NCBI RefSeq assembly: GCF_001956985.1
Contig: NZ_CP019082.1
Span: forward strand, 6,138,001 to 6,202,000
Reading direction: 5' to 3'
From: Paludisphaera borealis
GTDB taxonomy: Bacteria > Planctomycetota > Planctomycetia > Isosphaerales > Isosphaeraceae
Length of the DNA stretch: 64,000 nucleotides
The notes beneath the pieces were generated by a model, which saw only the letters and a list, made by a program, of their open reading frames with translations, was not told the DNA's origin and made no database searches. Below are positions 451 through 39,742 of the stretch, piece after piece; the stretch's first letter is position 1; each line of letters opens with the position of its first letter. The position numbers and the translations under genes are program-made.

Positions 451-3400
451 TCAGTTCGTCGTTTCCGAGGCGACGTCGCGAACCACGCCCAAGCCTTGCC
501 ACGCCCCCGCGAGCCTTCGGCCGGAACGAGTCCATCCTGCTGGAAGCCTTCGCTGCACCATCAAGTTGGTTTGCGGCGTCGCCGACCACCAAGCCGGTCT
601 TCTCGACCCACTCATCGATCGGACGATGGAAGAAGTCGGAGCGGACGTCCCGCCGGTGGACGTCGCGTCGACGGCCGCAATCTGGGCGAACGCGTCGTTC
701 GTCGAAAGAGCGGAAGCAGCCGCAGTGTCCCCTCCGCCTTCCGACGTCGGCTCGGCGGCCACTCCCTCGACGCTCGATGCGTCGAGAAAGACCATGGAGG
801 ACGCCGGCGTATACGTCCCGACGGTGCTCGCCTCGTTGATGGCCAGGATCTTGACATTCGAGTTACTGGGGAGCGTTATCGAAACGACCACTTTGGCCGA
901 ATTGACCGTGAAGCTGTATCCATACACGTAGCTCGTCACGCCAATCTGAGAGCTTGTGGTCCCGTTATAGTAATTGTAGTGGCCGAGCGATTTGGCGATC
1001 GACTCGCCCGGCGCAGTCGCGCCCGTGTACGCGCCGTTGTAGCCCGAGACCCAGTCGCTGATGCTCTGCGTGAAGGTGTCGGAGGTGCCGCCTTCGTAGT
1101 TGACGGTGAACGTCTGGTTCAGCTGGGTCCCGTTGGTCGCCGCCCCCAGGATCATCAACTTGTTCATGTAGCCGTGAGGCAAGGCGACCGTCTGGCCCGT
1201 GGCCTTGATCACGTTGTTGTTCAACACCCCGCCGACATTGAAAACCTGACCGTTCCACGCGATGGTGTTGCCCAGCATCACAGCCGAATAGCTGTGCCCT
1301 CCGCCGTCGAGATCGGCATACTGGGCGCCGCCGTCGAGTGAGATGCCTACCTGGTTGAACCCGGCGCTGGTAGTGTCGGTGGCCACGCCCAGGTTCACCT
1401 GTGAGGGGGCCGAGACGAGGTCGAGCGCGAAGATCATCATGTTGTCGTTGTTGTTCAGCGACAGGGATTTCACCGTCTTGGTCGGGTCGAGCGTGAAGGT
1501 GTAGCCGTAGATATAAGAGTTGTCGAAAACCTGCCCCGTGCCGGCACGGTTGTATCTGGTTGGCTTGGCGGCGATCGACTCGCCAGGAGCCGTCGACCCC
1601 GGCGTGCCGTTGTAACCTGAGAGACGGTCACTGATGGTCTGGTTGAAGGTGACGCTGGTGCCGTCGTCGTAGATGACGGTGATGATGGCCGCCTGGGGCT
1701 GCTGCATGGCCGTGGCCAGCATCATGAGGCTCGTGTACTTGCTCCGCGGCAAGTCGATGAACTGGCCGCGGAAAGGGCTGACGTTGGGCTGCCCCGCCGG
1801 TCCGAGGTTGAAGGTCTGGCCTTTCCAGACGTACGCCTTCCCCGAAGTCCAATTGGCGGCGGTCGCCAGAGCATTGGCCGAGAAGGAGTCCTGCGTCGTG
1901 TTGAGGCGTCCAAGGTCGACGTTGTTGTCGGCGGTGATCCCCACCACGCTGAACGGGATTGAACGATTATCGCCGCTCGTCTGGTTGAGCAACGACCCGA
2001 GGTTGATCTGTGGGGGAGAGTTGACGAGGTCGAGCGCGAAGATCACCATGTTCTGGTTGTTGTTCAGCGACAAGTACTGCACGGTCTTGCTCGCGTCGAG
2101 CGGGAAGCTGTAGCCGTAAATGAAAGCCTTGGTGTTGTTGACCTGCCCCGTGCCGATGTGGTTGTAGTAGTTCGTCTGAACGGCGATCGACTCGCCTGGT
2201 GCGACCGTGTTGGCGCCGGTATAGCCGGTGAGGTGGTCGCTGATGGTCTGGTAGAACGTGACGCTGGAGCCGCCGACGTAATAGACCGTGATCGCCGCCG
2301 CCTGGGGCTGCGGCATGGCCGTGGCCAGCATCATGAGATGGGTGTAATTCCCCTTGGGCAAATCGAAGTTCTGGCCGCCGAAATAGGTAACGTCCTTGTA
2401 GCCCGCCGGTCCGAGGTTGAAGGTCTGGTTGTTCCAGACGCCAACCTTGCCTGAGGTCCAATTGGCGGCATTCGCCAGGGCAGTGGCGGAGAACGAATCC
2501 TGCGTCGCGTTGAGGCTCCCTACGTCGACGTTGTTGTCCTCTGTGATCCCCACCATATTGAAAGGCACCGGCTTGCCCCCGCTGGCGGGTTGATTGAGCG
2601 TCGCCCCCAGATTCACCTGAGGGGGCGCCGAGACGGCGTTGAGGGCGAGGATCTTGACCTTATTCTCGTTGGGAAGAACGAGATCCCGCATGATGCGCTT
2701 CGGGTCGACGGGGATCACGTAGCCGTAGACGTAGCGGGTGGCGGACGCTCCCGTCTGGGCGACCTCGACCCCGCCGCTGAAGTTGTTGTAAGACGGCAGG
2801 GTGGCGGCTATCCCCTCCCCGGGCGCCGTCGACCCGGCGGTGCCGTTGTAGCCGGTGCGCCAGTCGCTCACGCCGAGGATGAACTGGTCGGCGGAACCGT
2901 CCGTGTACTCGACGCGAAACGGTCCGCCGTAGGCCCGATCGAAGCCGGTCGACATCCCCAAGAGGTAGAGCGCCGAGTAGCTCCCTTGCGGGACGTAAAG
3001 GGATTGCCCTCTTGCATAGATCGCATCGTTCGCGCCGATCGGCCCGAGGTTGAAGGTCTGACCGTTCCAGACGTAGGCCTTCCCCGAAGTCCAATTGGCG
3101 GCGGTCGCCAGAGCCGTGGAGGAAAGGCTGTTGGCGTACTGATCGATGTTGCCCTGGACGCTCGTCGTCGGCTGCGTGATGCCGACCAAATTATAGTCGG
3201 CGCTCAGATCTACTTGCGGTCCTTGCTTGACGACGTTGAGGGCGAGGATCTTAATCTTCGTTTCGCTGGGGAGCGAGAGGCTCGCGACCGTTCGACTCGG
3301 ATCGACGGGGATCATGTAGCCGTAGACGTAGCGTACGCCGGCCTGGGCGACCTCCAAGTGGCTGGTGGAGTTGAAGTTGTTGTATCCATTTAGGGTGGCG

Positions 3401-6400
3401 GCTATCGCCTCCCCGGGGGCTGTCGTCCCGACGGTGCCGCCGCCGAGGTAGCCGTTCCCCCAGTCGCTGACACCCAAGGTGTACGTGTCGTGGGTGTTGT
3501 CCGTGTAATTGACTTGGAACACCTGCCCCATAGCCTGGTTGAAGCCCGTCGCCATCGCCAGGAGGTAGAGCGCCGAGTAGCTCGCCTGCGGAAGGTTCAA
3601 GACCTGGCCGCCCGCCGGGAGCATGTTCTTCGCATTGACTGGGCCGAGCTGGAAGGTCTGCCCGGCCCAAGAGATGGTGTTCCCGACCAGAGTCGTGGAG
3701 GAGAGGCTGTTCGCGTACTGGTCGGCGTTCCCTTGAACGCTCGATCCCGGCGACGTGATCCCAACGACGCCCCACTGGTTGAAGGCGGAACTCAGGTCGA
3801 CCTGGTTGGTGGAGGACGTCGAGCCGGACTGGTTGACGTTGAGGTTGTGCGCGTTGAAAGGCGCGTACTTCAAACGCAGGTCATTGCCCGGCGGATGCCA
3901 ATTACCAAGGATAGGATCAGTCCAGTTGATGTACGGGTAAGCGGTGGAAGGAGCGATGTTGCCGTTGATGACTCCGGAGTAAACCTGGCCGGTATTGCCC
4001 GTCAGCACCTGAGTTCCGCTGGGCGAGATGGTCTTCGCAACGTTGCGGTCGATCGTCAAATTGATTTGACGTGGGTCTATGTAACCGTTGAGATAACCGT
4101 TGGTGCTGTCGTACGTCAAGGGGACTCGGAAGTCTCCCGCGCTGAAGGCGTTCCCGACGGTAATCGACGGCGGAGTGGGATCGTCACCGGACCAGTTCGC
4201 ATAGTTCGTGCCGCCGCTCCCGGTCGGAATGCCGTAGAATTTCGTCGTGTCCGTCGTTGGCTTAGTGCTCCAGTCGGTCAGCCACTGCGACGTCCATTGG
4301 ATCGTATTGTTCTTAACGGTCGCCTTGACGTAGACCCGCCCCGTCGGGCCTTCGCCCTGGGTAATACCCCCGGTGACCAGGATCGGGTTCGGGAAGTTTT
4401 GGATCGTGTTCGAATCGACGATCACGTCGAAGCACGGGTCCAAGCTCCAGTACTTGGGCAGGGGAAAGTTACCAGAGTCGAGTTCCGATGGTCCAGGGGC
4501 CGCACCGATTGCGATCCCGGTCCCCGTCCATCTCCCCCAAACGCCGCCTCCGTAGACTTCGTTGCCCGCTACGAGCGTGCCGAACTGGGCTCCGGTGAGG
4601 ATGAAACCGTAGGAGATCGTGCCCTCGAGATGGAGCTTGTTGTTGAGGTATTGATCGTCGATGAAGGCGTTCGCGATGTTGATCGCATACGATCCGGCGG
4701 GAACCGGCGACGTCATGAGGAACGTCGGGGGCGAGTCGGCGAGTTTCTGGGCGATCACGAACCAGCGGCCGGCGTTCGGATTCGCTGCGTCCACGATCGA
4801 GACGACCATACCGGGCTTGCCCGGTGTCTGCCCTCTGTAAGGGACCGTCGACGACGGCGTGGGAAGCGTGATCACCCAGCCGTTGTCCAGAACGCTGCCG
4901 ATCGGTCCCTCATAGGCGACTTGGTAGCCTTCGGTCAGGACGACCTCTTGCGAGTTGCCTCCGTCGGCCTGCCCATTGACGACGGTTTCGCCCCCCGTGA
5001 ACTGATTGCCGCTCACGACGTTGTGATACGCGACATCGCCGACGCCGTTGAGGCCGAAATTGACTAATCGATGTATCAGGCCATTCGATTCCGGGTGCGC
5101 CGGATCCGTCACCACCTGCGACACAATATTGCCCACGAAATTGACGTCGTGCGGCTTTTGCACACCGACGAATCCTTGGCTCAACGTATGCGGTTGGGCG
5201 CCGTCGCTCTTATTGTCCCTGATCTCCCACGGGCCGCCTTGGAGCTCTATAGGTCCGCCCCTGAAAGTGCAGTTCATGATCGACCCGCTCGATTGCTCGT
5301 AACCCGCATAATTCGCGACACGCAACAGACTGACGGCCGATTGGAGCGAGGAGCCTGGCGAAACGGCCGGCGGGCCGGCGATGTTAACGCGCGACAGATT
5401 CAGGAAAACCGGGTTCCCGTTTTTCCCCGGACCGGTCGTCAGATCAATGACGGCTTCAGCACCGGTCCAAGCGGTGCTTGAAGCGGTGTCGAATGTGATG
5501 TTGAGATCGTCGAAGTCGACGGCCAGGTCCTGGTTCCAGACCATGGGATGCAGATTGGAGGGGTCGGAGTTTATGACGATCGCCCCACGCGTGTTGGTCC
5601 ATGACGCCTGAAACTTCAGCGTGGCGTTCCTTCCGATGATGTGTACGGGGTGGTTGATCTTGAGCGGTTGCGTCAGGATGATGGTCGCGTTGGGGGGCAA
5701 TCTGATCGTGTCGTGGGGTGTGGCTCCCGACTGCCAGTTCAGAGCTGCGGAGAGATCACTCGCAGTTGTTACGTCCCAGGGGCTGGCCTCGTTGTTGAAG
5801 AAGCTGTAGTCGAGTTTCGCTGCCAGTAGGCTGTGGTCCCACGGCCCGCCTGCAAACCTTGTGACGTACTTTTTCGTGTCACCGGTGAAAGTCAAGGTCA
5901 TTGCCATGTCGGTGGCCACGTCGACGCCCGGCGCGCACTTCGTCTCATCCCGCACGGGAGGAAAGTAAACGTCCGCAGTTGTGTTGTCTACGGATTGCAA
6001 GAACGCGACAGGATGATTCGCATCTGCAACCGCAGGATCTTCTTTTAGCCAGAAATTGCCGGCTTGATTGCTGATCGTTATCGTGTCGATCTTCTTGCTT
6101 AGTCCGGTGACCCTTAGATGAACCCACCCAAGCAAGCCGGAGTTACTGTTATCCTGGCCGCTGCGTGCGAACTGCGACCAGGAGACCTGGAACGCGTTGT
6201 CCACAACTGTAAGTGGAGTCGCCGCCGTGGTGTAGGAGAGGGGAGGATTGGCGAGGGACAGGGGTCCGCTTGCAGTAGAAGCCGTGTAGGGGTCGTAATG
6301 GGCACCAGATGAGCCGGCCTTGTAAAAATAAGTGACCGTCACCGAGAGCTGATCGGTGAGCGTGGGTTGAAAGGTCGTCAACGCTCCGGTGGACGCGCCC

Positions 6401-6861
6401 AGGCTTTGCGGGGATCCGCCGCCGCTCGACGCGCTGGCGACGACGGGGTTCAAGTAGAGGTCGCCCTGACCCCGATCGGGCTGGGTGAAGAAGAATTCGG
6501 CGTGCGACCATCCGGTTTGTTGATTCATCGCGTCGTCCCATCCATTGGACACCGCGTTGTTGTACTCCCACTTGAAGATCGTCTGCCCCTGGCTGCCAGG
6601 AGGTCCCGTGACTACGATCGACTGGATGATGTCTGCACCCGACGCCGTCAGCAAGCCGCTGAGATGCAAGCGGACGTCCGCGACCCCGTCGGGGCCGACG
6701 GACGAGTTCGGACCGACGAGGTCCACGAGGCTGGTCCCTTGCCCCATCCACTGGACGCTCAGCGCCAGGAGCCGACGCGCTTCCAGTTGACATAGGGACG
6801 GGACCTGCATTCGAAGTCGTCGTCTATGAGATCCCCGTCGCCGATTCCTGGATGCGCTCAT
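451..6861 (-). CDS. Giant secreted protein: beta-helix region plus five tandem ~200-residue modules
   Basis: The product is 2136 residues and starts at the ATG at 6859-6861. Its N-terminus is very basic and followed by LEARRLLA, the motif seen at the front of many planctomycete exported or surface proteins. Residues about 380-900 hold short beta-rich repeats (for example HIIGRNATLKF, LNLSRVNI, IMNCTFRGGPIEL) typical of right-handed parallel beta-helix proteins, which often bind or cleave polysaccharide. From about residue 1020 to 2020 there are five tandem modules of about 200 residues. Each opens with QVDLS or QVNLG, a NQVGI-like strand and later WNGQTFNLGP, a TAPGESIA loop and YVYGY. No catalytic site was recognised. 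The C-terminal ~100 residues are low complexity. The gene stands alone. A structural or carbohydrate-binding surface role is inference. Confidence 0.8.
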   Translation of the reverse strand: MSASRNRRRGSHRRRLRMQVPSLCQLEARRLLALSVQWMGQGTSLVDLVGPNSSVGPDGVADVRLHLSGLLTASGADIIQSIVVTGPPGSQGQTIFKWEYNNAVSNGWDDAMNQQTGWSHAEFFFTQPDRGQGDLYLNPVVASASSGGGSPQSLGASTGALTTFQPTLTDQLSVTVTYFYKAGSSGAHYDPYTASTASGPLSLANPPLSYTTAATPLTVVDNAFQVSWSQFARSGQDNSNSGLLGWVHLRVTGLSKKIDTITISNQAGNFWLKEDPAVADANHPVAFLQSVDNTTADVYFPPVRDETKCAPGVDVATDMAMTLTFTGDTKKYVTRFAGGPWDHSLLAAKLDYSFFNNEASPWDVTTASDLSAALNWQSGATPHDTIRLPPNATIILTQPLKINHPVHIIGRNATLKFQASWTNTRGAIVINSDPSNLHPMVWNQDLAVDFDDLNITFDTASSTAWTGAEAVIDLTTGPGKNGNPVFLNLSRVNIAGPPAVSPGSSLQSAVSLLRVANYAGYEQSSGSIMNCTFRGGPIELQGGPWEIRDNKSDGAQPHTLSQGFVGVQKPHDVNFVGNIVSQVVTDPAHPESNGLIHRLVNFGLNGVGDVAYHNVVSGNQFTGGETVVNGQADGGNSQEVVLTEGYQVAYEGPIGSVLDNGWVITLPTPSSTVPYRGQTPGKPGMVVSIVDAANPNAGRWFVIAQKLADSPPTFLMTSPVPAGSYAINIANAFIDDQYLNNKLHLEGTISYGFILTGAQFGTLVAGNEVYGGGVWGRWTGTGIAIGAAPGPSELDSGNFPLPKYWSLDPCFDVIVDSNTIQNFPNPILVTGGITQGEGPTGRVYVKATVKNNTIQWTSQWLTDWSTKPTTDTTKFYGIPTGSGGTNYANWSGDDPTPPSITVGNAFSAGDFRVPLTYDSTNGYLNGYIDPRQINLTIDRNVAKTISPSGTQVLTGNTGQVYSGVINGNIAPSTAYPYINWTDPILGNWHPPGNDLRLKYAPFNAHNLNVNQSGSTSSTNQVDLSSAFNQWGVVGITSPGSSVQGNADQYANSLSSTTLVGNTISWAGQTFQLGPVNAKNMLPAGGQVLNLPQASYSALYLLAMATGFNQAMGQVFQVNYTDNTHDTYTLGVSDWGNGYLGGGTVGTTAPGEAIAATLNGYNNFNSTSHLEVAQAGVRYVYGYMIPVDPSRTVASLSLPSETKIKILALNVVKQGPQVDLSADYNLVGITQPTTSVQGNIDQYANSLSSTALATAANWTSGKAYVWNGQTFNLGPIGANDAIYARGQSLYVPQGSYSALYLLGMSTGFDRAYGGPFRVEYTDGSADQFILGVSDWRTGYNGTAGSTAPGEGIAATLPSYNNFSGGVEVAQTGASATRYVYGYVIPVDPKRIMRDLVLPNENKVKILALNAVSAPPQVNLGATLNQPASGGKPVPFNMVGITEDNNVDVGSLNATQDSFSATALANAANWTSGKVGVWNNQTFNLGPAGYKDVTYFGGQNFDLPKGNYTHLMMLATAMPQPQAAAITVYYVGGSSVTFYQTISDHLTGYTGANTVAPGESIAVQTNYYNHIGTGQVNNTKAFIYGYSFPLDASKTVQYLSLNNNQNMVIFALDLVNSPPQINLGSLLNQTSGDNRSIPFSVVGITADNNVDLGRLNTTQDSFSANALATAANWTSGKAYVWKGQTFNLGPAGQPNVSPFRGQFIDLPRSKYTSLMMLATAMQQPQAAIITVIYDDGTSVTFNQTISDRLSGYNGTPGSTAPGESIAAKPTRYNRAGTGQVFDNSYIYGYTFTLDPTKTVKSLSLNNNDNMMIFALDLVSAPSQVNLGVATDTTSAGFNQVGISLDGGAQYADLDGGGHSYSAVMLGNTIAWNGQVFNVGGVLNNNVIKATGQTVALPHGYMNKLMILGAATNGTQLNQTFTVNYEGGTSDTFTQSISDWVSGYNGAYTGATAPGESIAKSLGHYNYYNGTTSSQIGVTSYVYGYSFTVNSAKVVVSITLPSNSNVKILAINEASTVGTYTPASSMVFLDASSVEGVAAEPTSEGGGDTAAASALSTNDAFAQIAAVDATSTGGTSAPTSSIVRSMSGSRRPAWWSATPQTNLMVQRRLPAGWTRSGRRLAGAWQGLGVVRDVASETTN

Positions 6862-7247: not shown

Positions 7248-8087
7248 ATGCTCACGCGATCGATGCGGAAAACTCCCGGAATCAGTCTCGGTCGGACCAT
7301 CCTTTTAGTCGCGAGGCAGGCATTGGCCATTGGGGTTTGCGTCGTGGCCGCGGGGCGGGCGGGGGCGTCGCCTTACATCGTCACGGATCTCGGCCGCGTT
7401 TCCGATATGCAGCAGAATGGGCAGAGCTTCGACAACACGAAGACAGGCGTCTCCTACGCCTTCCCCAACACGTTGAGGAACTTGACCGACGCGGAGATGG
7501 CGAATCTGCCGACATACTCGGCGACCATGAGACAGCCTCCCCCTCCCAATTGGGATAACTCCCCAAGTACAAAAATCGTCACGATGAACGCGTGGAGGAT
7601 AAACGACTCGGGGACGGTCATCGGCACCCTCGATAAGGTAGTCGATCGCTTCGGCAACCCAGTTAACAGCGATGTCGGGTATACCGTGAGGTCGCCTGAC
7701 GGCACCTATTCGCCGTTCGTGACGCTGTCCGCCTACCCCGCTTCCGCGTCCGCCCACTACTACCTGAGCCAAGCGAATCAGATCCTCATCACCGACCCAA
7801 CAGCGACCCGTCTTGTGGACCTGAACACCGGCAGATCGACTTCGATCGATCAATTGATTCCACAACAGCTCCTCCAGAACTATCCGGGAATTCCTTTCGT
7901 CCAGGGCATTGACGACCGGGGAGACATCGTTATTTATGCCGACAACCAATATACCGGGTCGGAAGCTTTCATGCTGACGCCGCCGGGCCTGGACCCGCCC
8001 CCGGTGCCGGAGCCGTCGACGCTGCTGATCTTCGCCGCAGCCGGCGCGCTGGTCGTCCGCACCGCCCGCCGTCGAAGGCTCGCCTAG
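7248..8087 (+). CDS. PEP-CTERM sorting domain protein
   Basis: The product is 279 residues. It has a basic N-terminus (MLTRSMRK), a hydrophobic stretch ending near GRAGAS, a likely signal peptidase site after about residue 38, and a central domain that resembles no enzyme I know. The C-terminus is a textbook PEP-CTERM signal: VPEPST, a hydrophobic helix (LLIFAAAGALVV) and a basic tail (RTARRRRLA). Such proteins are exported and processed at the C-terminus by an exosortase, usually encoded elsewhere; none is in this window. The GGGACC upstream of the ATG is a plausible ribosome binding site. The gene ends 24 bases before the start of the IS630 transposase reading frame. Confidence 0.85.
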   Translation: MLTRSMRKTPGISLGRTILLVARQALAIGVCVVAAGRAGASPYIVTDLGRVSDMQQNGQSFDNTKTGVSYAFPNTLRNLTDAEMANLPTYSATMRQPPPPNWDNSPSTKIVTMNAWRINDSGTVIGTLDKVVDRFGNPVNSDVGYTVRSPDGTYSPFVTLSAYPASASAHYYLSQANQILITDPTATRLVDLNTGRSTSIDQLIPQQLLQNYPGIPFVQGIDDRGDIVIYADNQYTGSEAFMLTPPGLDPPPVPEPSTLLIFAAAGALVVRTARRRRLA

Positions 8088-8110: not shown

Positions 8111-9084
8111 ATGCTCGCGCTTTGGCTGCTGCACAACGGAGACACCCGACGAAGGGCGGCCGAAATCGTCGGGGTGGGTCGGGCCACCGTCCAGCGTTAT
8201 GTGGCCGCGTACCGCGACGGGGGGTTGGACGGCCTGCGACGATGGGACCCCAATCGCCCCGAGAGCGAGATGGCCGGCTATCGCGAGTTGATCCACGAGT
8301 CCCTCGAGAACCAACCCGTCCGCACCGTGGCCGAGGCGTGCGACCGGATCTTTCAACTGACCGGGCTGCGACGCGGTCCCAGCCAGGTGCGGAAGTTCCT
8401 CAAGGATCTGGGCCTGAAGTTCCAGCGGGTCCGCATGATCCCGGTTCCGCCCAAAAAAACTTGGCCGAGCACGTCGCGATCCAGGCCGAGTTTCTCGAAG
8501 CCGACTTGAAGCCCCGCCTGAACGCCGCCGGGGCGGGGCGGGGTCATGTGTTCTTCGTCGACGCGGCCCATTTCGTGTTCGGCACGTTCTTGTGCTGCCT
8601 GTGGTCGTTCACGCGGATCTTCGTCCGCGCGGCTTCGGGTCGTCAGCGATTCAACGTGCTGGGGGCGTGGAACGCAACGACGCGCGAGTTGATCGCCGTG
8701 ACCAACACCACGGTCGTCAACACCGAGACGATGTGCGAACTGGTGCGAAAGATCACCGCGTTGGGACTGGCCGGACCAATCACGCTGGTGCTCGACAACG
8801 CCCGCTATCAGCGCAACGCCGCCGTGCAGGCGTTGGCGGAGGAGTTGGAGATCACGCTCCTGTTCCTGCCGTCGTATTCGCCGAACCTGAATCTCATCGA
8901 GCGTCTGTGGAAGTTCATCAAACGCCGTGCGCTCTACGGCCGCTACCATCCGACGTTCGCCGATTTTCAAGCCGCCATCCGGGAGACCCTCGACGGCCTT
9001 CCGACCACCCACGCCGAGCCACTGAAGACCCTAATGACGCTCAACTTCCAGCAATTTGAAGATGTCTCGCTTATGGCCGCGTAA
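8111..9084 (+). pseudogene. IS630-family transposase, frameshifted at a run of seven A
   Basis: Two overlapping frames together encode one IS630/Tc1-type transposase. The first (8111 to about 8460) has an N-terminal helix-turn-helix (AAEIVGVGRATVQRYVAAYR) and the linker. The second (about 8455 to 9084) has the DDE core: VFFVDAAHFVFG (first D), LVLDNARYQRN (second D) and SPNLNLIERLWKFIKR (E). The switch falls at A7 (8453-8459). An eighth A would restore a single frame reading PPKKNLAEH, so either one base was lost, it is a sequencing error, or a -1 ribosomal slip is used. The frame is open upstream of 8111 into the preceding gene's end (LANERIRERM), so the 5' end may be truncated. Terminal repeats were not identified. 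Confidence 0.8.
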
Positions 9085-10068: not shown

Positions 10069-11976
10069 ATGAATCTGTCATGCCGACATTGGGCTGACGC
10101 GATCGGGCGGGCGACCTTCTCGGACTTACACGCCCATCGGGTCGTTTACCTCGCAATCGACAAAGAGGCGATCGGCAGGATCGGCAGGGAGTTCGATCTC
10201 GAGCCCGAAGCTTCCTATGAATCCTTCCGGGCCGCGGTGATCAGCGAGGTCCAATACGGCTGGCCCGATCCCTCGCTGCGCTTGAGACAGGGGCAATTCC
10301 CGCGTTACCTCACGGTCCTGGCGGCTCAGGTCGTCTCCGCCTTTCAGATGCACGACGATGAGTTGGCGGGTGCCAAGGCGTATTGGCGGAGACTCCGAGA
10401 GTTCCTCGGCCAAACATCCGAAGACAAGATGCCCGAAGGGCTCGTCGGCTGGCGGCATACAGCCCTTTGGAAAGGCCTCAGGCAGTGGGCTAACGAGGTA
10501 AATGGCGAACGTCTAGGACGCGTGCGCCTCGTAGAACAGGTCAGAGGGCATCATCTCGTCGCCGAGCCTCTCAGCCAATGCCTGCTGCGTAGGGCTGACC
10601 TGGAAAAATTCCGGCAACTGTTCGCAGAACGCGGGCGGCCGGACCGCGAACCCTTCCTCGGGGATAGGCTCAGGAACCTGGTGGACGAGGCACGACGGTT
10701 ACCTTCCGGGCGATACTTCACCAAGCACAGCGAGCGGATCCTGGACGACCCGCGTCGGAATAAAGAGGCTTGGGAGCAAATCGAGGCCGAGTTTAAGCGA
10801 TTCCTCACAGAGCCATGCCCCGAAGCCGCAGCCAGGTTGGACTCTCGGGCCGCCGGGGGACGACGGTGCCGTTCCGGTACTGCCGTACTCCTACAGCTTA
10901 ACAGGAGGGGTTTGAGCGGCGGGCTGTATGGCCTGGCGGACGGTCGGCGCACTCCTCTGGTCGCTGACCTCGGCGAAGTCCTGCGTCGATGCTACCTGCG
11001 GGCCGGCCGCGAGGGTTCAAGTCCACCGCATAAGCCCCCTCACGACAAGCACCTCCTGGCAGTCCGAGGCGACGAGTCCGGCCCGTTCACCGAGAGGGAC
11101 GGGTGTCGAGCCGGGGACGAGGTACTCCTGCTGGTCCCGGAACTATTCGGGAATGCTTGGCTCGATGACGCTGACCCTCGCCTGTTCGCCGAAGCCCCGC
11201 GGCGATACCAGCCATCGCTCCGGGCCAATCGGATCGGGTGGGTTCCCTTGGATGGCCTCCCTTTGGGTTGGCTCGCTCTGAGATTCAAGACCCACGAAGA
11301 CCTGACGGAAGCGACTTTGGAAGGCAAGTGGGTCGGGGTAGTGGACCGCCGCGCAACGGGCCTCCGAGCCTCAGGTGGATTGATTCTCCGACGCGGGGTG
11401 TGGATGCTCGGCGCGGGTCCGACAGTTCAAGTAGTCGGCCCCGGGAGTTACGATCACATCCTCGTCAATGGCGAGCCACGACCGCTCGACGCCGCTCGAT
11501 GTGCGACTCCTGACCTCGGCGTGGGCGAATACCGAATTCGCTTGCCGGGTCCGGAATCGACGGTGTTGAGGATTCAGATCCACGAGCCTCGACGCACCGC
11601 GCCTGGCGAGTCGGCGGGCTGGCATCGGGTCGAGTGTGGATGGCCGGCGTCGGACTCCGAGCGCCGCCAGATCGAGGTAGTCCCGGGGACGGAGACTTTA
11701 CATGGGGCGCGGCTCGTCGGAGATTGGCCTCCACAACGCGAGCTCGAGCCCGAGACGGCCGCTCCCGCACCACAGATCCCGCGTGAGATGATCTCAGAGG
11801 AGCTGGCGGCCATGTTGCTGGCCGTACGACTTCGCACGAGTAAGCGAGTTGGCCGTTCCCTCCCACGAAATGCCTCGGTCATGGTGACCGCGGCGGATCT
11901 AAGAGCGAATCCCCTTCTGCTTGGGATGCTCCACGCGAACTGCCCCGGCTTCTTGGTCGGAACTGATAAGACTTAA
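10069..11976 (+). CDS. Unknown 635-aa protein, first gene of a candidate defence operon
   Basis: I do not recognise an enzyme domain. The N-terminal third is helical with motifs such as FPRYLTVLAAQVVSA, AYWRRLREFLG, ALWKGLRQWAN and LSQCLLRRADLEKFRQLF. Residues about 205-245 (LRNLVDEARRLPSGRYF...) are charged and helical. The C-terminal half is beta-rich (GLYGLADGRRTPL, GDEVLLLVPELF, GVWMLGAGPTVQVVG). There is no signal peptide or membrane segment, so it should be cytoplasmic. It begins with ATG at 10069 after a weak GAAGGGCGAAG ribosome site. Four bases separate its stop from the next gene, so the two are surely cotranscribed. Its place ahead of a McrB-like protein and a giant helicase suggests a sensor or DNA-binding subunit; that is inference. 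Confidence 0.7.
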   Translation: MNLSCRHWADAIGRATFSDLHAHRVVYLAIDKEAIGRIGREFDLEPEASYESFRAAVISEVQYGWPDPSLRLRQGQFPRYLTVLAAQVVSAFQMHDDELAGAKAYWRRLREFLGQTSEDKMPEGLVGWRHTALWKGLRQWANEVNGERLGRVRLVEQVRGHHLVAEPLSQCLLRRADLEKFRQLFAERGRPDREPFLGDRLRNLVDEARRLPSGRYFTKHSERILDDPRRNKEAWEQIEAEFKRFLTEPCPEAAARLDSRAAGGRRCRSGTAVLLQLNRRGLSGGLYGLADGRRTPLVADLGEVLRRCYLRAGREGSSPPHKPPHDKHLLAVRGDESGPFTERDGCRAGDEVLLLVPELFGNAWLDDADPRLFAEAPRRYQPSLRANRIGWVPLDGLPLGWLALRFKTHEDLTEATLEGKWVGVVDRRATGLRASGGLILRRGVWMLGAGPTVQVVGPGSYDHILVNGEPRPLDAARCATPDLGVGEYRIRLPGPESTVLRIQIHEPRRTAPGESAGWHRVECGWPASDSERRQIEVVPGTETLHGARLVGDWPPQRELEPETAAPAPQIPREMISEELAAMLLAVRLRTSKRVGRSLPRNASVMVTAADLRANPLLLGMLHANCPGFLVGTDKT

Positions 11977-11980
11977 AATT

Positions 11981-14074
11981 ATGAGCAATTGCCACATTGG
12001 ATACGTACTCGGGTACGTCGATTTTATCCATGAGGCGGCTCTCTGGGGCCGTATCCGCCCGTTGGTGATGGTCAAAAAGCGAGCCGCCGACGGCGAATGG
12101 AAGGTCGACCGCTCCTGCGAGCCTGGAGAATTTGGAGCCACGCGCCTGGTCTTCTGGCCGGTGATTCCCCGCGAACAAGCCCATTTGGTCCACCGATACG
12201 TTCGGTTTAAGGTCGAGCCCAACGAGAAGCCCCGCGATCCTGAGCGCGAGCGTGACGAGTTCGTCGTGGCCGAGGAGCGGTGGAACGGAAGCATGCGTCG
12301 GGTTGTTTCGCCACTCGGCCTTACCATCCTTCCTGAAAACTCCATCATCGACTCCGAACGCGCCGTGGACCCGAGGTCCGGACTGCGATCTCAGTCGACT
12401 GTCTATCGGCGAAAGATGAATGGTACCTTGATCGACGGGCCTTGGCGAGTTGTCGATATCAGCGACCCGGCCCGTCTCTGCCTCCAGCCGAGAGAGGACG
12501 ATCACGTCGTGGAGTACACGCTAGGCCGGCTCAACCAGGAAACGTACCATGTCTGGGACGACGAATACGGCGTGAATCAGGCCGTCCTCCTGACCGAGCC
12601 CGCGAAAACGGATGGCCGGGTGATTGACCACCTGACCGAATCGGGCCTGGCCGATTGGCTGATCCGAGTGTTCAAACGCGACAAGCCCTTCCTGACCAGT
12701 CTCGACCGCGCCTCACCGGGTTGGAGGGGCCGTATCGGCGAACTCCTCGAGACCGCGACCGACCCCGTTCTGCGGAAGTTGAACGAGCAACGGTTCGCAC
12801 GCCTCGATTCGGCTCTGAAGGCGCTGGCCGTCGACGAGTCACGATCCGACGACCTGGTCGAGATGCCTCGATTCAAGGAGATCCTTGACGCCGCGATCAA
12901 CCGAAAGATCGCATCCGAGAGGGGGCAGATCGAAGCCGCGGCCCAAGAGCAGGCCTGCGACGCGCTTGGTCGACTGGGTCAGGAGCGTGAGCTGGCGGTT
13001 GCGCAGGCCGAGCGGGAGAAGCAGGCCATCCTTCGCGAACTGGATAAGATCCGCGCTGCGGTTGCCGACGCCGAACGTCTGCGAGATAACGCCCAGGCGG
13101 AGGCCCAACGGGACGAATCATCGATTCGCGCCGCGGCCAACCATCTGGTCGAGGCGCGAGAGCGGATCATCCGAGACTTCTCCGCGTTCCACGGGTTGAT
13201 CGAGAGTATGTGGACGAGCGGCGGTGGCTCGTCCGCTCGTCCGCTCGTCGCGAAAACTCTCAACGTACCCTCGTCGACCCGACCAACGGTTGTACCCGAA
13301 GGCCCGGCGATTGATGATCCGAACGTCTTCCTCGCTGACAGGCTTGGGCCGACGATGGGGTGGTGGGGGGCCGAAGCTACCCGGCTGCAAGTCAAAAGGT
13401 TGCACGCAGCCCTGGTGTCATGTCGATGGGTCGCCACTCCTTGCCCGTCGTGGGGCGTGGCCTACGCCGAGGCGATCGGGGCATGCGCCCGGCATCGGAT
13501 CGTAGCCGCCGAGCCCACCTGGCTGTCCTTCTCCGACGCCTGGGGTGGCGAAGTGGAGGACTTCTGGCGTGAGGCGGTCGAGCGGCACGACGAACTGCAC
13601 CTGCTGATTTTCGCTGATGCCGACCGTGCCCTCGTGCAATGCTGGGCGCGGCCCCTGCTCGATATCGTCTCCGGCCTCCGGAGCACGCTGCCTTCGGGAC
13701 TGGCATGGCCGGAGAACCTCCGACTCATTGCCTGCCCGTCGGCCGATGAGGCCGCCCTCCCCGTGCCCGATTGGGTCGTTGCACACTGGGCCGGCGTCAG
13801 GGCCGCACAGGGGACTCGCCCGGACGAGGCGATCACTCCCGGGCACGTCCCCTTCGCAGTCTGGTCACGATGGGGAATGGCCCAGAGGGGCTCCTCGCGC
13901 CTCTCGCCCGGACTCGGCGTAGCCGCACGATCCGCCGCGTTGGATCGCTCGGCCTTAACCGAAACGTTTCGTCGACTCGAACCCGACGACGACCCAGAAC
14001 AAGCCAAGCAAATCGCGCGGGAGATCCGCGAGGTCAATGCCCGGATGATCTTTGCAAGGGGGGCGCGGGCATGA
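11981..14074 (+). CDS. Coiled-coil protein with a degenerate McrB-like AAA domain
   Basis: The product is 697 residues when started at the ATG at 11981, four bases after the previous stop; the frame is open further upstream but that would overlap the first gene. The N-terminal ~300 residues are unrecognised. A long charged coiled coil covers about residues 300-405. The C-terminal part follows the order of McrB/dynein-type AAA domains: VEP-type strand then WLSFSDAWGG, FWREAVERHDELHLLIFADADRALVQ in the place of the Walker B strand, and NLRLIACPSADEA as the sensor strand. The Walker A position reads ATPCPSWG instead of GxxGxGKS, and Walker B has ADADRA instead of DEMN. It therefore probably cannot hydrolyse ATP and may be a scaffold. 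It overlaps the next gene by four bases. Confidence 0.7.
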   Translation: MSNCHIGYVLGYVDFIHEAALWGRIRPLVMVKKRAADGEWKVDRSCEPGEFGATRLVFWPVIPREQAHLVHRYVRFKVEPNEKPRDPERERDEFVVAEERWNGSMRRVVSPLGLTILPENSIIDSERAVDPRSGLRSQSTVYRRKMNGTLIDGPWRVVDISDPARLCLQPREDDHVVEYTLGRLNQETYHVWDDEYGVNQAVLLTEPAKTDGRVIDHLTESGLADWLIRVFKRDKPFLTSLDRASPGWRGRIGELLETATDPVLRKLNEQRFARLDSALKALAVDESRSDDLVEMPRFKEILDAAINRKIASERGQIEAAAQEQACDALGRLGQERELAVAQAEREKQAILRELDKIRAAVADAERLRDNAQAEAQRDESSIRAAANHLVEARERIIRDFSAFHGLIESMWTSGGGSSARPLVAKTLNVPSSTRPTVVPEGPAIDDPNVFLADRLGPTMGWWGAEATRLQVKRLHAALVSCRWVATPCPSWGVAYAEAIGACARHRIVAAEPTWLSFSDAWGGEVEDFWREAVERHDELHLLIFADADRALVQCWARPLLDIVSGLRSTLPSGLAWPENLRLIACPSADEAALPVPDWVVAHWAGVRAAQGTRPDEAITPGHVPFAVWSRWGMAQRGSSRLSPGLGVAARSAALDRSALTETFRRLEPDDDPEQAKQIAREIREVNARMIFARGARA

Positions 14075-15003
14075 CGGCTTCGGGAATCGATCCTCGGTCC
14101 TCGGACCGATTGCTCGCCTGGCTCTCAGCGCGGGGCCGGGTCTCGGCCCCAACGGCTGATCGCGCCTGTCTGGCGATCGCCGATCGCTTCGACTTAAACC
14201 TCGGGAGCGACCGCTCTCCGACCCATCGGTATCTCAATCCTTTGAGGCGACTCGGACACGTCGAAGCGGTTCGCGGAGGGTTCGCCGTCGTGCCGACCAC
14301 CTTCTGTTGGTCATGTCGAGCCGAGCGGGGCGTGTTCCTCGGTGGCCGTGACGGAGTCTTACTAGCCGAATTGAGCCGCCGTCTCGGGCCAGCTTTCGTC
14401 GCTTCCGTCTCCGACCATCCCTGGCCCGCAACCTGGAGAGGGCACGGTCGATCCGAGACGGTTGAGGCGTCGATCGAAGGACTCGGGGTCGCCGTAGTCC
14501 ACGAGCCAGGGATGAAGCTGCTCGCGTCGCTCCCCACTTTGGAGGACGCCATCGCCACGTGGACCGACGCCGGCCGGATCTCAGGCCTCACTCAATGGGA
14601 GGTCGCTGAGGTGCATGGTCGCGGGCGGTGGTCCCCGACCGACGGCATGGGAGTTGAAAACGGCCTGATCCGGCCGTCCGGGAAAGGGCGTCGTATCTGG
14701 AGGATTGTGAGGGACGGAGTCGGCAGATTCCTCGATTCGCCCGAGAAGCGGGCCGTAGCGTGGTGGGCCGAGCTGGCGCGGACAGTACAGCCCAACCTCG
14801 GCCTGGATCGCAAGGCCGACCGTCTCTTGCTGCCCGCGAGCAGATTGCCACCTCCCCTGATGGTCGAGAGGCCCCTTTTCTGGGCCTCGGGATCGCCGCC
14901 GTCGTGCGATTCGACCAAGAGGCATAGCTACGAGGCTATCGACCCCGGCCGGGCCGGCGAGGTCGCGAGAATCCTGGGGCTTTCGTTGGAGGACGCATCG
15001 TGA
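14071..15003 (+). CDS. Unknown 310-aa protein of the candidate defence operon
   Basis: The start is the ATG at 14071, which overlaps the previous stop (ATGA). A longer open frame upstream is only the shadow of the preceding gene. The N-terminal 75 residues (SDRLLAWLSARGRVSAPTAD..., THRYLNPLRRLGHVEAVRGGFAVV) look like a winged-helix fold. This is followed by TTFCWSC and a mixed alpha/beta domain with no known motif. The C-terminal ~30 residues are helical. The gene overlaps the helicase start by four bases, so translation of the two is coupled, as expected for subunits made in fixed proportion. The protein may bridge the helicase to DNA or to the partner proteins; this is inference from context. 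Confidence 0.65.
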   Translation: MTASGIDPRSSDRLLAWLSARGRVSAPTADRACLAIADRFDLNLGSDRSPTHRYLNPLRRLGHVEAVRGGFAVVPTTFCWSCRAERGVFLGGRDGVLLAELSRRLGPAFVASVSDHPWPATWRGHGRSETVEASIEGLGVAVVHEPGMKLLASLPTLEDAIATWTDAGRISGLTQWEVAEVHGRGRWSPTDGMGVENGLIRPSGKGRRIWRIVRDGVGRFLDSPEKRAVAWWAELARTVQPNLGLDRKADRLLLPASRLPPPLMVERPLFWASGSPPSCDSTKRHSYEAIDPGRAGEVARILGLSLEDAS

Positions 15004-18000
15004 ACGACCCGGTCGGAGTGGCGAGTGAGCTGCGATCGCTCTACGGCAAGTACTTGGATAGCGCCCAACCGCTCCGCCACGAAGGACTCATGCGCGAGCG
15101 AGCCGATCTGCTCGGTTGCGAGGGGACCCTGCACCGGGACCCTTTGATCGAGCCCGTGCCCCGATATGAGGAGGTCGGGACGTTGTCGGAGGCCTGCCGC
15201 GACCTGGGGCTCTCACCCGAGTTCGCCGACTTCTCGTCTCGGGGCGCGTTCTCGCCGGGCCGCAAGCTCTACTCCCACCAGTGGGAGGCGCTGAAGGAAG
15301 TCTGCGTCCGGGGACGGTCGATGGTGGTGACCACTGGCACCGGCTCGGGCAAGACCGAGTGCTTCCTCCTGCCTGTTATCGAGTCGCTTGTCCGTGAATC
15401 CGGCGGCTGGCTGGGACTCGATCGACCTAAGGCGGTCCGCGCCCTGATCCTCTACCCGCTCAACGCGCTGGTGGAAGACCAGATGAGCCGACTCCGCCGC
15501 TCGCTCGACGGCCCCGAGGCTCGCGAGTGGGTGGCGGCGAACCGCCGTGATCGGTTCACGTTCGGCCGCTACAACGGCCGGACGCCCATCTCCGGGGGCC
15601 GGACTCCGCAGAAGAAGGCAAAGTGGCAAGACGAGCTTCGGAAGCTGCAGAGGCGGGCCCGGTCGCTTTCCGGCCTGGGCGACGAAGTCCGACAGCAGTT
15701 TCCGAGCGTAGACCCCGACTCGGGAGAGCGATGGGATCGTTGGACGATTCAGGACAATCCGCCCGACGTGCTCGTGACGAACTACTCGATGCTCAACATC
15801 ATGCTCATGCGGGCGATCGAAGCCAACATCTTCGTGGCCACCCGCGTATGGCTGGAGTCCGATCGAGGCCGCGTGTTCCACCTGGTCGTGGACGAGCTGC
15901 ACACTTACCGCGGGACGCCCGGCAGCGAGGTCGCGTACCTTGTTCGCTTGCTCCTCGGCCGACTGGGCTTGAGCCCCGACTCGCCGCAGGTTCGATTCCT
16001 CGCCTCCAGCGCCTCGCTGGATTCGGGAGAGAAGGGTGCCCGTTATCTTGAGGGCTTCTTCGGATTGGCTGCGGCGAAGTTCGCCGTCCTTTCCGATTTT
16101 AAGGAGGTCGACCGGGACGCGCCCGTGGCCCCTCTGGCCCGGCACGCCTCGGCGTTCGCGGCGTTTTCCGGGGCGACGGACGAGGGAGTCGCGGCGCTGG
16201 CCGCGGGCCTGGGCGTGGCCCTCCCCGAGGCTCCTCCAACCGTCGCCCTATCGGGGCTCATCGAGGCGGTGAAGGGCGTCGATGCAGTCCGATCGATGGT
16301 ATCCCGACCGATGACTCCGACTGAGTGGGGTACCCAAGTCTTCGGGCTCTCCGGCGGCACCGGCAGGGAGGCCGCCGCCGGCCTGATGCGCGCCCTGGCT
16401 TCGGCCCGGACCGGCGGGTCGGATTTAGACCCGGCACCCCTTCCACTTCGGGCGCATCTGTTCTTCCGCAATCTGACGGGGCTCTGGGCCTGCGCCGACC
16501 CGGCTTGCAGCGAGGTGCCGAGCGTCCCGAGCCACACGCCTCGGCCGGTAGGCAAGCTCTACTCCCATCCCAAACTCCGATGCGACTGCGGCTCGACGGT
16601 GCTCGACGTGATCGTCTGCCAGGCGTGCGGAGAGGTTTACCTGGGGGGTACCGCGCTCGCGACGACCATAGCAGCTCCTCCTTCCGAATTGTGCATGATC
16701 AGCCCGACCTGGAACGCATCCCGAACCCGGCTCCGTTCAACAAAAGCTACGACGATTACGCCGTGTTCTGGCCGGTCGAGCGTGACGAGGACCGGCCGAC
16801 GCCTTCGACGTGGAAGCACAATCAGGTCGATCGTCGATGGGACGAGGGGTGGATGGATCTCGTCCTCGGCGAGGTCATGGAACTTCGGGACGACCACCGG
16901 GCCCGACGGGGTTATCTCTACCAAATCCCAAAGACTCCCGCCGGCTCGAAATTCTCGGCCTTTCCCACCACGTGCGCGCGCTGCGAAGCAGATTGGGGTC
17001 GGAGCGGCCAGGACGATGTCGGAGACGACCCGGGCCGATCGCCGCTTTCCCCCCACCGGACCGGGTTTCAGAAGGTCAATCAGGTCTTGGCCGACGGGCT
17101 GCTACGACAGATGCCCGACCCGAAAACCCGCAAGCTCGTGGTCTTCACCGACAGCCGCCAGGACGCCGCGAAGCTCTCCGCCGGGATCGAACTCGACCAC
17201 TACCGCGACCTCGTCCGGCAGTCGATGGTTCGGGGCTTCTCGCGGCTCGGGGGCGAGGTACGGGCGTTCCTCAAGTCGGTCGACGACCCGCGGAAGATGA
17301 GAGCTCTTACCCTGGAGGAGAAAGAAGCCCGCACTCGCTTCATCGACGCCAATACCGCTGCGGCCCGCGCCATGCAAGACTTGAAGGAGGGGGACGACTC
17401 GCTCGATATCGTCCGGATCGACGCTGAAGTTCGCGCCGGCGTCGACGGCCCGTATCGGCTCTCGCAAATCCACTCGGCTTTGATCGGCGACCTGCTACGC
17501 CTCGGCTGCAACCCCGCCGGCCCCCGGCCGAGCCACGCCAGCAGCGCCGAATTGAAGGTCGACCACTGGTCCGACCTCTACGAATGGGGAGCGGGCCCGG
17601 CCAGGGTCAAGGACGCCTCCAAACTGCTCGATGGGGCGAAGCAATTCGCCAAGGTCCTCGACGCCCAGTGCCTCAATGAGTGTGTCTTCACCCTCTTCGC
17701 CCACGCGCGGAAATCCGTGGAGGCGCTCCGGCTCGGGTGGGTCACATTCGACCCGAAGCTTGCCCCGCCGAGCGGTTTCGACCCCGAGCGATTCCGCCGA
17801 GCCGTCGAGGTCGCCATGCGACAGCTTGGTGAACGGCGACGGTTTCGGGGGTCGGACTACGCCTACACGGCGAAGAAACTCCCCAAGGTCTTCGGCGACT
17901 ACCTCAAGGCGGCACGCCTCGACGACCCCAAAGCGTGGGTATCCGCCGTCGAGGACTTCCTGATCACCAAGAAGATCACGAACGACGGGCTCTTGCTCGA

Positions 18001-20254
18001 CCCGTCGTCGCTCTGGTTTCGACCGGCCGCGACCGGGGCCGAATCCTGGACCTGCACGCGTTGCAGGGCAGTCCACCTCCATCGCGCCCTCGGCCGGTGC
18101 ATGAACTGCCACGACCCCTTGCCCGAGGCGGCCGACGCGGCCGGTCCTCGCGACGACGATTATTACTCCCACCTCGCTTCCGACGGCGCCTCGGCGTTTC
18201 GCCTGCGTTGCGAGGAGCTGACCGGACAGACGGACAAGGACGACGCCCAGGATCGCCAGCGGCTGTTCCGCGGGATCTGCCTGCCCGACGAGGTCCGGCT
18301 CGTTTCCGAGATCGACGTGTTGAGCGTGACCACCACGATGGAGGCGGGCGTCGACATCGGCGATCTTTTAGCCGTGATGATGGGCAACGTTCCGCCGCGT
18401 CGGTTCAATTACCAACAGCGGGTCGGCCGCGCTGGCCGTCGAGGCGCCGGTCTTTCGGTGGCACTCACGGTGGCTCGGGGCCGGAGTCACGACAACTTCC
18501 ACTTCGGCGACCCCGGGAGGATCACGTCCAATCCCCCGCCGCCGCCTTACGTCGACATGCGACGCCCCGAGATCCTCAAGAGGATGCTCGCCAAGGAGGT
18601 CCTCCGCCTCGCTCTCGCCACCGAGGAAGACGACGGCCCGGTCGCCCCCGACAGCGTTCACGGGGAATTCGGCCGCGCCGACGAGTGGTCCGGCCGCGCC
18701 GACCAGTTCCGTGAGTGGGTCGGCAAGAATGACGCGGTCATCGCAAGTGTCGTCGACTTGCTCCTCGTGGGGACCGGTCTAAAGCATCACCGTGAAGGAT
18801 TGATCGCCTACCCCGCGACTCTCCCCTCACGGATCGCCGAGATCGCCGACTCTCGCGAGTACTCGCAAGACGCCCTGAGCGAGCGACTGGCCAACGACGG
18901 TCTCCTGCCGATGTTCGGGTTCCCGACACGAGTCCGTTATCTCCATCACTCTCCTCCCACGGAGTTTCCCCCCAAGCAAGTCGTCGATCGCGACGACGGC
19001 GTCGCCATCGGCCAGTTCGCCCCGGGCAGTGAGACCGTGAAGGACAAGCTCGTCCATCGCGCGGTGGGGGTCGTCCTTTATGGCATCGGGAAGGCGGGAA
19101 AGATCGAGGAGCGTGATGGACGTGGGCGGATCGCCGAGATCGGGTCATGCTCGGCGTGCGGTGCGTTGTCGACCGACGAGTTAGGCAAGTCCGCCTGTCC
19201 GGTCTGCGGCATGGCCGAGCCCGAATTGTACCGCCGGATCGCGACTTGGGAACCCCTGGGTTACACCACCGAGCCGGAGGCTTCGAGGGACTTCCACGGC
19301 CGCTTCGACTGGTCGCCCCGCGCCGGCCACCCCCGGCTCGACTCCGACGGAGTGCCAGTCTCCGTCCTCGCGGGAACGAACGTGGCCTATGCACTGGACG
19401 AGAGGCAGGTGCTCCGCGTCAACGACAATAGCGAGAGGCTATTCGCCTTCCGCCAGGGACCCGGCATGCGCTGGGTCGTCGAGGACGAGTTGAGGGGCGT
19501 CTGGAGGTCCAAGGCGGCTGACGCTAAGACGGTCGAGGTCGCCCTGGCGTCGCGCAAGCAGACCGACATCCTCCGACTCCGTCCAGCGGTAATACCTGCC
19601 GGACTGCGGCTCAGCCCACCTCTCGCCATGAGCCCCTGGCCCGCTGAATCGTCCTTATACGCGCGGGCTGCCTTCTACTCCTGGGGCCACCTCCTTCGGC
19701 TTGCGGCTTGCGATCTCCTGGATGTCGAGTCGCGGGAGTTGGACGTAGCCGTCAGGCCGGTACGATCGCTGAGGGGCGAGCCGTCCTACGAAGTCGTCTT
19801 GATGGATACCCTGGAGAACGGCTCGGGCTATTGCCGTCACCTTTCCGAACCTGAGACACTCCGGGCGCTCCTCGCGTCGGTGACCGACCTTGACCGGGGC
19901 TGGGCGGCGAAGATCGCTGGAGACGAGCACGCTGCTCATTGCGACGGCTCCTGCTACGATTGCCTTCGCGACTACTCCAATGCCGATCTCCACGCCGTGC
20001 TCGACTGGCGGCTCGCGTTGGATCTCTTGGAGCTAGCGAGGGACGTCGACGCCGACCTCTCGGTCGACAACCCTCGCTGGGCCACCCTCGTCCGTCGAGC
20101 CGTGGAGACCCTTAGCGAAGTCGCCCCGGGTCGAACATTCCGGCTGATACACCCACTCCGAGGCGGAACCGAACCGGGGTCTGACGCCTGCAATGTTTTC
20201 GACGCGGTACGACGTCCCGGGCTCGTGGCCATGCGGCGCTCAGGAAATCACTGA
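15000..20254 (+). CDS. Giant DEAD-box helicase with DUF1998 domain, one-base frameshift in this sequence
   Basis: It starts at GTG 15000 (overlapping the previous stop) and ends at 20254. With one base restored it is about 1751 residues. Visible motifs are Walker [12 protein letters not shown] (residue ~110), [17 protein letters not shown] (~296), [10 protein letters not shown] (~715), [13 protein letters not shown] (~1105) and [11 protein letters not shown] (~1139). Cysteine pairs occur near residues 540, 1019 and 1383. The C-terminal [15 protein letters not shown] block is typical of DUF1998. The frame breaks at G6 (16643-16648): GEVYLGG in one frame continues as YRARDDHS in the other, and a seventh G would join them. 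The architecture and size fit the large helicases of Druantia (DruE) and DISARM-type defence systems. Its partners here differ from the known sets. Confidence 0.8.
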
Positions 20255-33363: not shown

Positions 33364-33654
33364 TCAGAGGATCAGCGGGCCTTCGATGTCGAGGCCGGGC
33401 TTCGCTCCGTGGTGTTCGACGCGCTGCTCCCAGTTCGTGCCGAGGTAATAGAAGCGGACGCTATCGACTTCGGGATCGATGATCCGGAGGAGTCGGTCCC
33501 TGCACTGGGCCCACTGGGCGGGGTCGACCTTCAACTCGAAGACGGAGTACTGGACGCGCTGGCCGAAGTCGAGACACGCTTTCGCGGCGTGGCGGAGGCG
33601 TCGCTTGCCGGCGGGCGTCAGGGTTTGAATGTCGTAGGTGACGAGGACGTACAT
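33364..33654 (-). CDS. cas2: CRISPR-associated protein Cas2 (type I-C)
   Basis: The 96-residue product starts [20 protein letters not shown], the Cas2 ferredoxin-fold first strand with the conserved aspartate, and continues with [10 protein letters not shown] and VRFYYLG. The ATG at 33652-33654 was preferred to an upstream start because it gives the standard Cas2 length. Cas2 forms the core of the Cas1-Cas2 spacer integrase. It lies 50 bases after cas1 and next to the leader. Confidence 0.95.
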
Positions 33655-33704
33655 GGCGGCCGGCGGGTCCGGGATGAGTTGAGGGTCGAACGAACGGCAG
33701 GCGG

Positions 33705-35407: not shown

Positions 35408-35410
35408 CGG

Positions 35411-39166: not shown

Positions 39167-39229
39167 TTCATTATCCTATGGGAGCCATTCGGTTTGCTGG
39201 CGGCCTCAAGGCCGACGGTCGTGATGGTG

Positions 39230-39255
39230 CCTTCTCCCCTGGTGGGGGGAGAAGG
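39230..39255. repeat. Extragenic hairpin repeat
   Basis: CCTTCTCCCC and GGGGAGAAGG form a perfect 10-bp stem with a six-base loop. A second small GGCC-rich palindrome follows at once. This is the common CCTTCTCC...GGAGAAGG type of interspersed element seen in many GC-rich genomes. It lies between cas5c and the small gene. Confidence 0.7.
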
Positions 39256-39310
39256 TGGCCGGTACGGCCGGATGAGGGGAGCGACAACCGATACTCGCAG
39301 TCCTGTCGCA

Positions 39311-39544: not shown

Positions 39545-39742
39545 GACTGCCTCCTTTGCGAAACTTAAGCATTCAGGCACACGAACGATTGCATCCGGGT
39601 TGTCCGGCCAGTATACTGAGCTTTAGAGTGAAATCAATCGTCGCTGCTCCGGAATCTCGGGATTCTTGCGTCAAGTGTGTCACTTGCGTCTCCGCAGGTG
39701 TGGGTTGAAACGTGTGACTGAATGCTTGTCGGCATTGATATA

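Follow-up and report, generated by a model that had tools for sequence, protein, structure and literature searches.

Described Druantia types and the operon of the window

The types of the antiphage system Druantia that come closest to the operon studied here have been described by different sets of partner genes. In the portion of PMC8565338 drawn on here, type IV consists of DruE, DruF and DruL, and lacks two type II genes, DruM and DruG. Type II (DruM, DruF, DruG and DruE) and type I are together named Type IV CoCoNuT in the sections of PMC12458937 used, which also report inactivated homologues of the GTPase CnuB in Druantia I and II, and mention unappreciated diversity in these two types. 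CnuB has a coiled coil before its GTPase domain, according to the cited part of PMC11090510, and an excerpt of PMC13192584 reports that DruE of Druantia III prefers 3'-tailed DNA. Here we analyse a stretch of 64,000 nucleotides from Paludisphaera borealis (NZ_CP019082.1, 6,138,001–6,202,000, forward strand; hereafter the window, to whose positions coordinates refer unless another locus is named). An operon on its plus strand (10069–20254) carries four genes in the order DruF-DruG-DruL-DruE.

We consider it probable (about 0.8) that this operon is a Druantia antiphage system with a DruE of the type IV lineage, acting by the mechanism proposed below. Antiphage activity itself is what membership in the family would predict. 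The operon looks like a rare variant that helps to explain the relations between the subtypes, and not like the wholly new defence system put forward in the initial annotation: we assigned all four genes computationally to Druantia families. Its partners, which had been placed outside the known sets, are DruF (gene 1, E 2.3e-17), DruL as judged by profile comparison (gene 3) and a remote DruG (gene 2). A named system is thus matched by all four genes at the family level, while their combination is found in no single PADLOC type, as far as the types are covered by the source used. The description of four fused genes was correct for the open reading frames (ORFs) and for the three junctions (a 4-base gap at 11976/11981, an ATGA overlap at 14071 and a GTGA overlap at 15000), but the helicase is not one gene and lies in two frames. 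The annotated DruE-type helicase was confirmed, with its CDGSCYDC block and a PADLOC match to DruE4, and a partner described as degenerate is gene 2, which has no Walker A pattern.

Genes 1 and 3 match DruF and DruL

Gene 1 (10069–11976, plus strand, 635 amino acids) is DruF-like. It matched the PADLOC model DruF4 (PDLC00054) with its N-terminal third (residues 6–233), and gene 1 alone, compared with four DruF proteins, gave an hhalign score of 97.9 over residues 7–194. Its homologue in G205, another planctomycete, matched DruF2 (3.6e-15). For the first gene of the related operon in G230 PADLOC gave no match, and that in G286 matched the N-terminal part of DruB1 (2.2e-10). The gene 1 family had 0 matches among the sequences of solved structures.

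Gene 3 (14071–15003, plus strand, 310 amino acids) found no DruL match in PADLOC when the window protein was used alone. A profile of four family members (window, G205, G230 and G286) matched DruE-adjacent genes at the loci L025 (7.7e-23) and L030 (1.3e-11). Since the proteins of these two loci match PADLOC DruL4 (2.4e-27 and 5.6e-23, respectively), gene 3 is, on its sequence profile, a DruL. Consistent with this, the family scored 99.1 in hhalign against a reference set of four DruL (reversed control, 1.4), and the members from the window and G205 scored 98.7 against those from G230 and G286 (reversed, 0.1). The eight matches of the family to sequences of solved structures were all at E 0.14 or worse, and none was useful.

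We also aligned the DruL set to type II DruF, whose C-terminal part gave an hhalign score of 88.9 over positions 545–849 of 884 (reversed, 0.2); two PADLOC DruF2 models (1011 and 1030 positions) likewise end in a DruL-like part. Because type II DruF has this DruL-like C-terminal part, type II and the window operon appear to draw on the same sequence modules, either fused or separate. This suggests that DruL is a general module, which is a separate gene in type IV and is fused to DruF in type II.

Gene 2, a probable remote DruG with an inactivated AAA+ domain

Gene 2 (11981–14074, plus strand, 697 amino acids from its ATG) had no match to any PADLOC, Pfam or NCBIfam family at a threshold of E 0.01, and the nine matches of its family to sequences of solved structures, all at E 0.15 or worse, were of no use. 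A four-member profile of gene 2, compared with five type II DruG, scored 97.7 in hhalign along the whole length; with single proteins it scored 87.1 (L032), 51.8 (L034) and 0.2 (type I DruC). As coiled coils can inflate hhalign scores, the parts of gene 2 were tested apart against the DruG set, and gave 72.5 for the C-terminal part, 78.8 for the coil and 19.2 for the N-terminal part (reversed controls 0.1–0.8, that of the C-terminal part being 0.1). When the C-terminal part was run against 220 ORFs, all six DruG were within the first seven matches outside the gene 2 family. The DruG labels have the following basis. PADLOC assigned L034 (3.3e-17) and L037 (2e-13) to DruG2, L036 weakly (2.3e-4) and L032 not at all; L036–L039 were counted as DruG through their match to L034, and L032 through its match to L039 (2.6e-9). 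The term type II for L034, L037 and L038 rests on gene order. In L032 and L036 the annotation shows a methyltransferase next to the operon, and in L039, from Roseomonas, it is located after DruE.

The full-length structure model of gene 2 was poor (mean predicted local distance difference test score, pLDDT, 41.6), and its best-scored part is a predicted long helix or coiled coil (residues ∼296–412, 12866–13216). An AlphaFold model of residues 440–697 (five sequences) had a mean pLDDT of 57.3, with block means of 58–87 in the first 150 residues. Foldseek placed McrB (6hz4_D) at rank 1 with E 8.9e-4, the sole one of 667 at 0.001 or better. VIA-align also placed McrB at rank 1 (6ut6_A; Z 11.3, root-mean-square deviation 3.2, 152 aligned), a row that is tied within 1 Z with the AAA+ domains of dynein and ClpA. 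On these models an AAA+ domain (residues ∼440–610, 13298–13810) is firmly predicted, and kinship with McrB is its favoured but unproven reading. Five of five gene 2 proteins and six of six DruG lack the Walker A pattern, which agrees with the statement on inactivated CnuB homologues in the sections of PMC12458937 used. Gene 2 therefore shares with McrB and CnuB a C-terminal domain whose first structural match is McrB and a preceding coiled coil (the latter as described in the cited part of PMC11090510); it differs from them in having no Walker A, and other AAA+ proteins match it almost equally. We conclude that gene 2 looks like a remote DruG, and its presence suggests that a pseudo-GTPase of the McrB/CnuB line is part of some systems of the type IV lineage.

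The DruE helicase: broken frame and position in the tree

The helicase is very large, belongs to the YprA family and is split over two frames. Its N-terminal part (15000 to ∼16649, plus strand) carries the motifs TGTGSGKT and DELH, and its C-terminal part (∼16643 to 20254, plus strand) carries Helicase_C and an MrfA Zn-binding/DUF1998 region. PADLOC DruE4 matched both ORFs (5.3e-167 for 15000–17300 and 4.8e-302 for 16325–20254). Pfam matched the C-terminal piece with Helicase_C (3.9e-7) and with MZB (6.3e-5), the latter at 24.0 bits and so slightly short of the 24.2-bit cut-off. Motifs are kept in both pieces. The alignments of all three relatives tested (G205, G161 and Nostoc) put the switch of frame at 16643–16649, where a run of six G (16643–16648) is located. 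No such run is present at the matching site in the four relatives examined, and hence programmed frameshifting was judged unlikely. The break is either a real lesion or an assembly error; assembly errors are common in homopolymers. Should the frame be broken in the genome as it is in the assembly, this copy of the operon may be inactive. Among solved helicases, 9wae closely resembles the DruE of L034 (1577.5 bits) and is clearly related to that of G205 (1.1e-145).

In a computed tree of 24 DruE rows, the window, G205, G230 and L042 (a locus from a viral-contig record) form a clade with support of 98/99. This clade sits inside a branch (95/92) of systems with DruF plus DruL or with a DruF-DruL fusion, and the six type II rows make up a clade of their own (100/98). 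L042 has a long branch and an odd composition; without it the other three still group (99/99), and the support of the wider branch is 87/87. An approximately unbiased test rejected the four-member clade and the six type II rows as one clade (p 3.6e-54), the group having been named after the tree was seen. By sequence, the window DruE is thus of the type IV lineage and apart from type II. As the two sets of DruE lie in separate clades, DruG would either have been present early and been lost in the DruF-DruL-DruE systems, or have been gained twice.

Related operons and their distribution

Among 392 Planctomycetota genomes, DruE matches reach E 1e-100 in seven (the window genome, G205, G230, G161, G042, G178 and G352), and four have a member of the gene 2 family (the window genome, G205, G230 and G286). 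At E 0.001 the gene 2 profile reached seven genomes, three of which (G101, G190 and G338; 5e-4 to 7e-4, in coiled-coil columns) were dropped. In G205 four overlapping genes are present in the same order, and DruE is without an internal stop; in G286 the contig ends ahead of DruE. A fourth relative, L042, has a GC content of 0.34 at the locus; it also has four overlapping genes, the last of which is DruE (DruE4, 1223.9 bits). Its second gene matches gene 2 (family profile 2.6e-9, window protein 4e-7, C-terminal part 92.9) and its first gene weakly resembles that of G205 (0.0018). At five loci (the window, G205, G230, G286 and L042) gene 2 is flanked by genes 1 and 3, which it overlaps or from which no more than 4 bases separate it. 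The recurrence of an overlapping four-gene operon with this order in G205, and of a diverged one in L042, shows that the arrangement is not due to chance.

Within the class (297 genomes) gene 2 occurs in the window genome and G205 only, and it was not found in the five other genomes of the same genus that are listed. This distribution fits horizontal acquisition. A scan of a genome contig collection with one peptide pattern of gene 2 gave two loci, apparently those of G286 and G230; scans of viral contigs and of plasmids with gene 2 found none. With the homologue of L042, viral contigs returned L042 itself only, and plasmids and phages returned none. A 924-amino-acid protein of L046, which matched the gene 2 profile at 6.7e-4, was taken as a coiled coil (C-terminal part, 0.0) and rejected.

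The flanks of these operons held some further matches. Around the operon of G205 (L009) we observed a match to the NERD-helicase model RTasNERD-Hel (5.8e-49, 1673–3364) and a phage-type integrase (2.1e-13, 14606–15880). Directly after DruE in L042 (15136–16128) there is a weak, PBECR3 nuclease-like match (0.0013, below the cut-off). In G230 (L008, 1887–7591) and G286 (L010, 4606–11822), a long protein (1527 and 2056 amino acids, respectively) with a weak AAA ATPase match adjoins the Druantia genes and is followed by a protein of 427 or 384 amino acids, in opposite relative orientations and without PADLOC match. The long and the short protein are possibly another defence pair.

Comparison with named systems

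The window operon shares with Druantia type IV the branch of its DruE, a DruF in first position and a DruL immediately before DruE, an order also seen in L025 and L030. DruF was found directly and DruL through relatives. The difference is the DruG-like gene between DruF and DruL, which type IV is without in the portion of PMC8565338 used. With type II it shares a DruG-like, inactivated McrB/CnuB homologue, a remote one in this case; its DruE, on the other hand, lies in another clade, and its DruL is a separate gene. Neither the operon nor the neighbouring ORFs covered by the scan yielded a DruM, several neighbouring ORFs being outside that scan. In combining a YprA-type helicase with an inactivated CnuB/McrB-like GTPase, the operon also agrees with Type IV CoCoNuT. 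Type I (DruA-DruB-DruC-DruD-DruE, as in L035) has a similar layout of accessory genes before DruE, and the DruB1-like N-terminus of the G286 first gene is a further likeness, whereas the window operon is without DruA and has its DruE in another clade. A collinearity with type I, in which gene 2 would be DruC and gene 3 DruD, was kept as a likeness of layout only, as no similarity was found (0.2–0.6 and 0.2–0.7, respectively). DISARM was rejected: the MZB match lies within the helicase ORF and not in a separate DrmB gene, and no methylase is among the operon proteins.

The operon brings together two Druantia types that have been told apart by their partner sets, DruG being the mark of type II and DruL that of type IV, and it fits no single type as the types are described in the portion of PMC8565338 used. 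In the openly licensed literature, supplements not covered, we found no report of an operon that has both DruG and DruL; an earlier notice is possible, given the remark on diversity in the sections of PMC12458937 used. As PADLOC models miss two of the four window genes, such systems may be under-counted.

Weighing the Druantia assignment against its rivals

Several results weigh against assigning the operon to Druantia as DruF-DruG-DruL-DruE. The helicase frame is broken in the window, and the DruE of G230 has an in-frame TAG. The DruG link of gene 2 is remote: single DruG scored 2.0–50.2 against its C-terminal part, with an unrelated ORF (6.4) among them, and its N-terminal part found one DruG above noise (L034, 6.6). 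Genes 2 and 3 of the window are without DruG or DruL match in PADLOC, both links being made via relatives. The first genes of G230 and G286 cannot be clearly called DruF, and they match the first genes of the window and G205 weakly (10.3; reversed, 0.2). At L042 the second gene, though matching gene 2, fails against the DruG set (0.2), the first gene matches DruF weakly (12.8–14.1), and the third (278 amino acids), in the DruL slot, matches DruL at noise level (1.8).

The operon might be a plain type IV system (DruF-DruL-DruE) into which an unrelated coiled-coil gene 2, playing no part in the system, was inserted; the place of DruE in the type IV branch, the description of type IV without DruG in the portion of PMC8565338 used and the lack of a PADLOC assignment for gene 2 would all fit. 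Such an insertion is nevertheless unlikely, as gene 2 keeps its tightly spaced place between genes 1 and 3 at five loci, the DruE of the four gene 2 carriers that have one form a single clade, and gene 2 resembles a Druantia component, DruG. Even less credit can be given to a wholly new, unnamed system. DruG plus DruL in no single type of PMC8565338, as far as that source was used, and the absence of a PADLOC match at E 0.001 for genes 2 and 3 speak for it, but all four genes fall in Druantia families and DruE lies inside the Druantia tree. We give a sizeable chance, somewhat short of even, to the window copy being a decaying, non-functional remnant, which concerns this copy only and is compatible with the Druantia assignment. 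The frame break, an upstream transposase in overlapping frames and the failure to find gene 2 in the five congeneric genomes point that way; against it, genes 1–3 are open, motifs survive in both parts of the helicase, the frame breaks within a homopolymer and G205 has an unbroken copy.

If the operon is a Druantia system, DruE would load on invading or replicating phage DNA where a 3' single strand is exposed, and unwind or hold it. DruG, as a pseudo-GTPase of the McrB/CnuB line, may tie DruF and DruL to DruE in a complex through its long coiled coil, its inactivated AAA+ domain presumably serving as a docking or oligomerising part and not as a motor. Recognition and licensing would fall to DruF and DruL, and phage replication would be blocked as the outcome. 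The compact, unbroken operon of G205 makes the roles of DruF, DruG and DruL testable singly.

We advance only tentatively, and with more doubt than belief, that DruF-DruG-DruL-DruE is a distinct Druantia subtype reaching beyond Planctomycetota. It would keep the unfused four-module set ancestral to type II, in which DruF fused with DruL and DruG was retained, and to type IV, in which DruG was lost. Its first slot would take interchangeable recognition proteins, DruF in the window and G205 and a protein with a DruB-like N-terminal zinc finger in G286. The odds of this reading are lowered by the second gene of L042, which fails against the DruG set.

Surroundings of the operon

The transposase neighbourhood reported in the initial annotation was recovered as an upstream ORF (8122–9084) with a DDE_3 domain and an overlapping helix-turn-helix frame (8111–8509), and, in keeping with the defence-island setting suggested there, a type I-C CRISPR-Cas locus lies downstream. 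The third-position GC content of the operon (0.70–0.82) compares with 0.87–0.95 in several neighbours; other window genes are also at 0.71–0.83, and low third-position GC is thus a weak sign of foreign origin. Scans for promoters and terminators were uninformative (1 against a shuffled mean of 1.1, and 10 against a shuffled mean of 7.4).

The CRISPR-Cas locus extends from 28120 to ∼33175 and from 33364 to 42114, and comprises 68 copies of one repeat family as well as ORFs that match Cas2c, Cas1c, Cas4c, Cas7c, Cas8c and Cas3c. Residues 633–766 of the Cas8c ORF also match PADLOC PDC-S68 (7.9e-19), largely outside the Cas8c match. At the other end of the window, an ORF of 2136 amino acids on the minus strand (451–6861) is without a Pfam match at E 0.01, and a protein encoded at 7248–8087 carries a terminal PEP-CTERM motif (1.3e-4).

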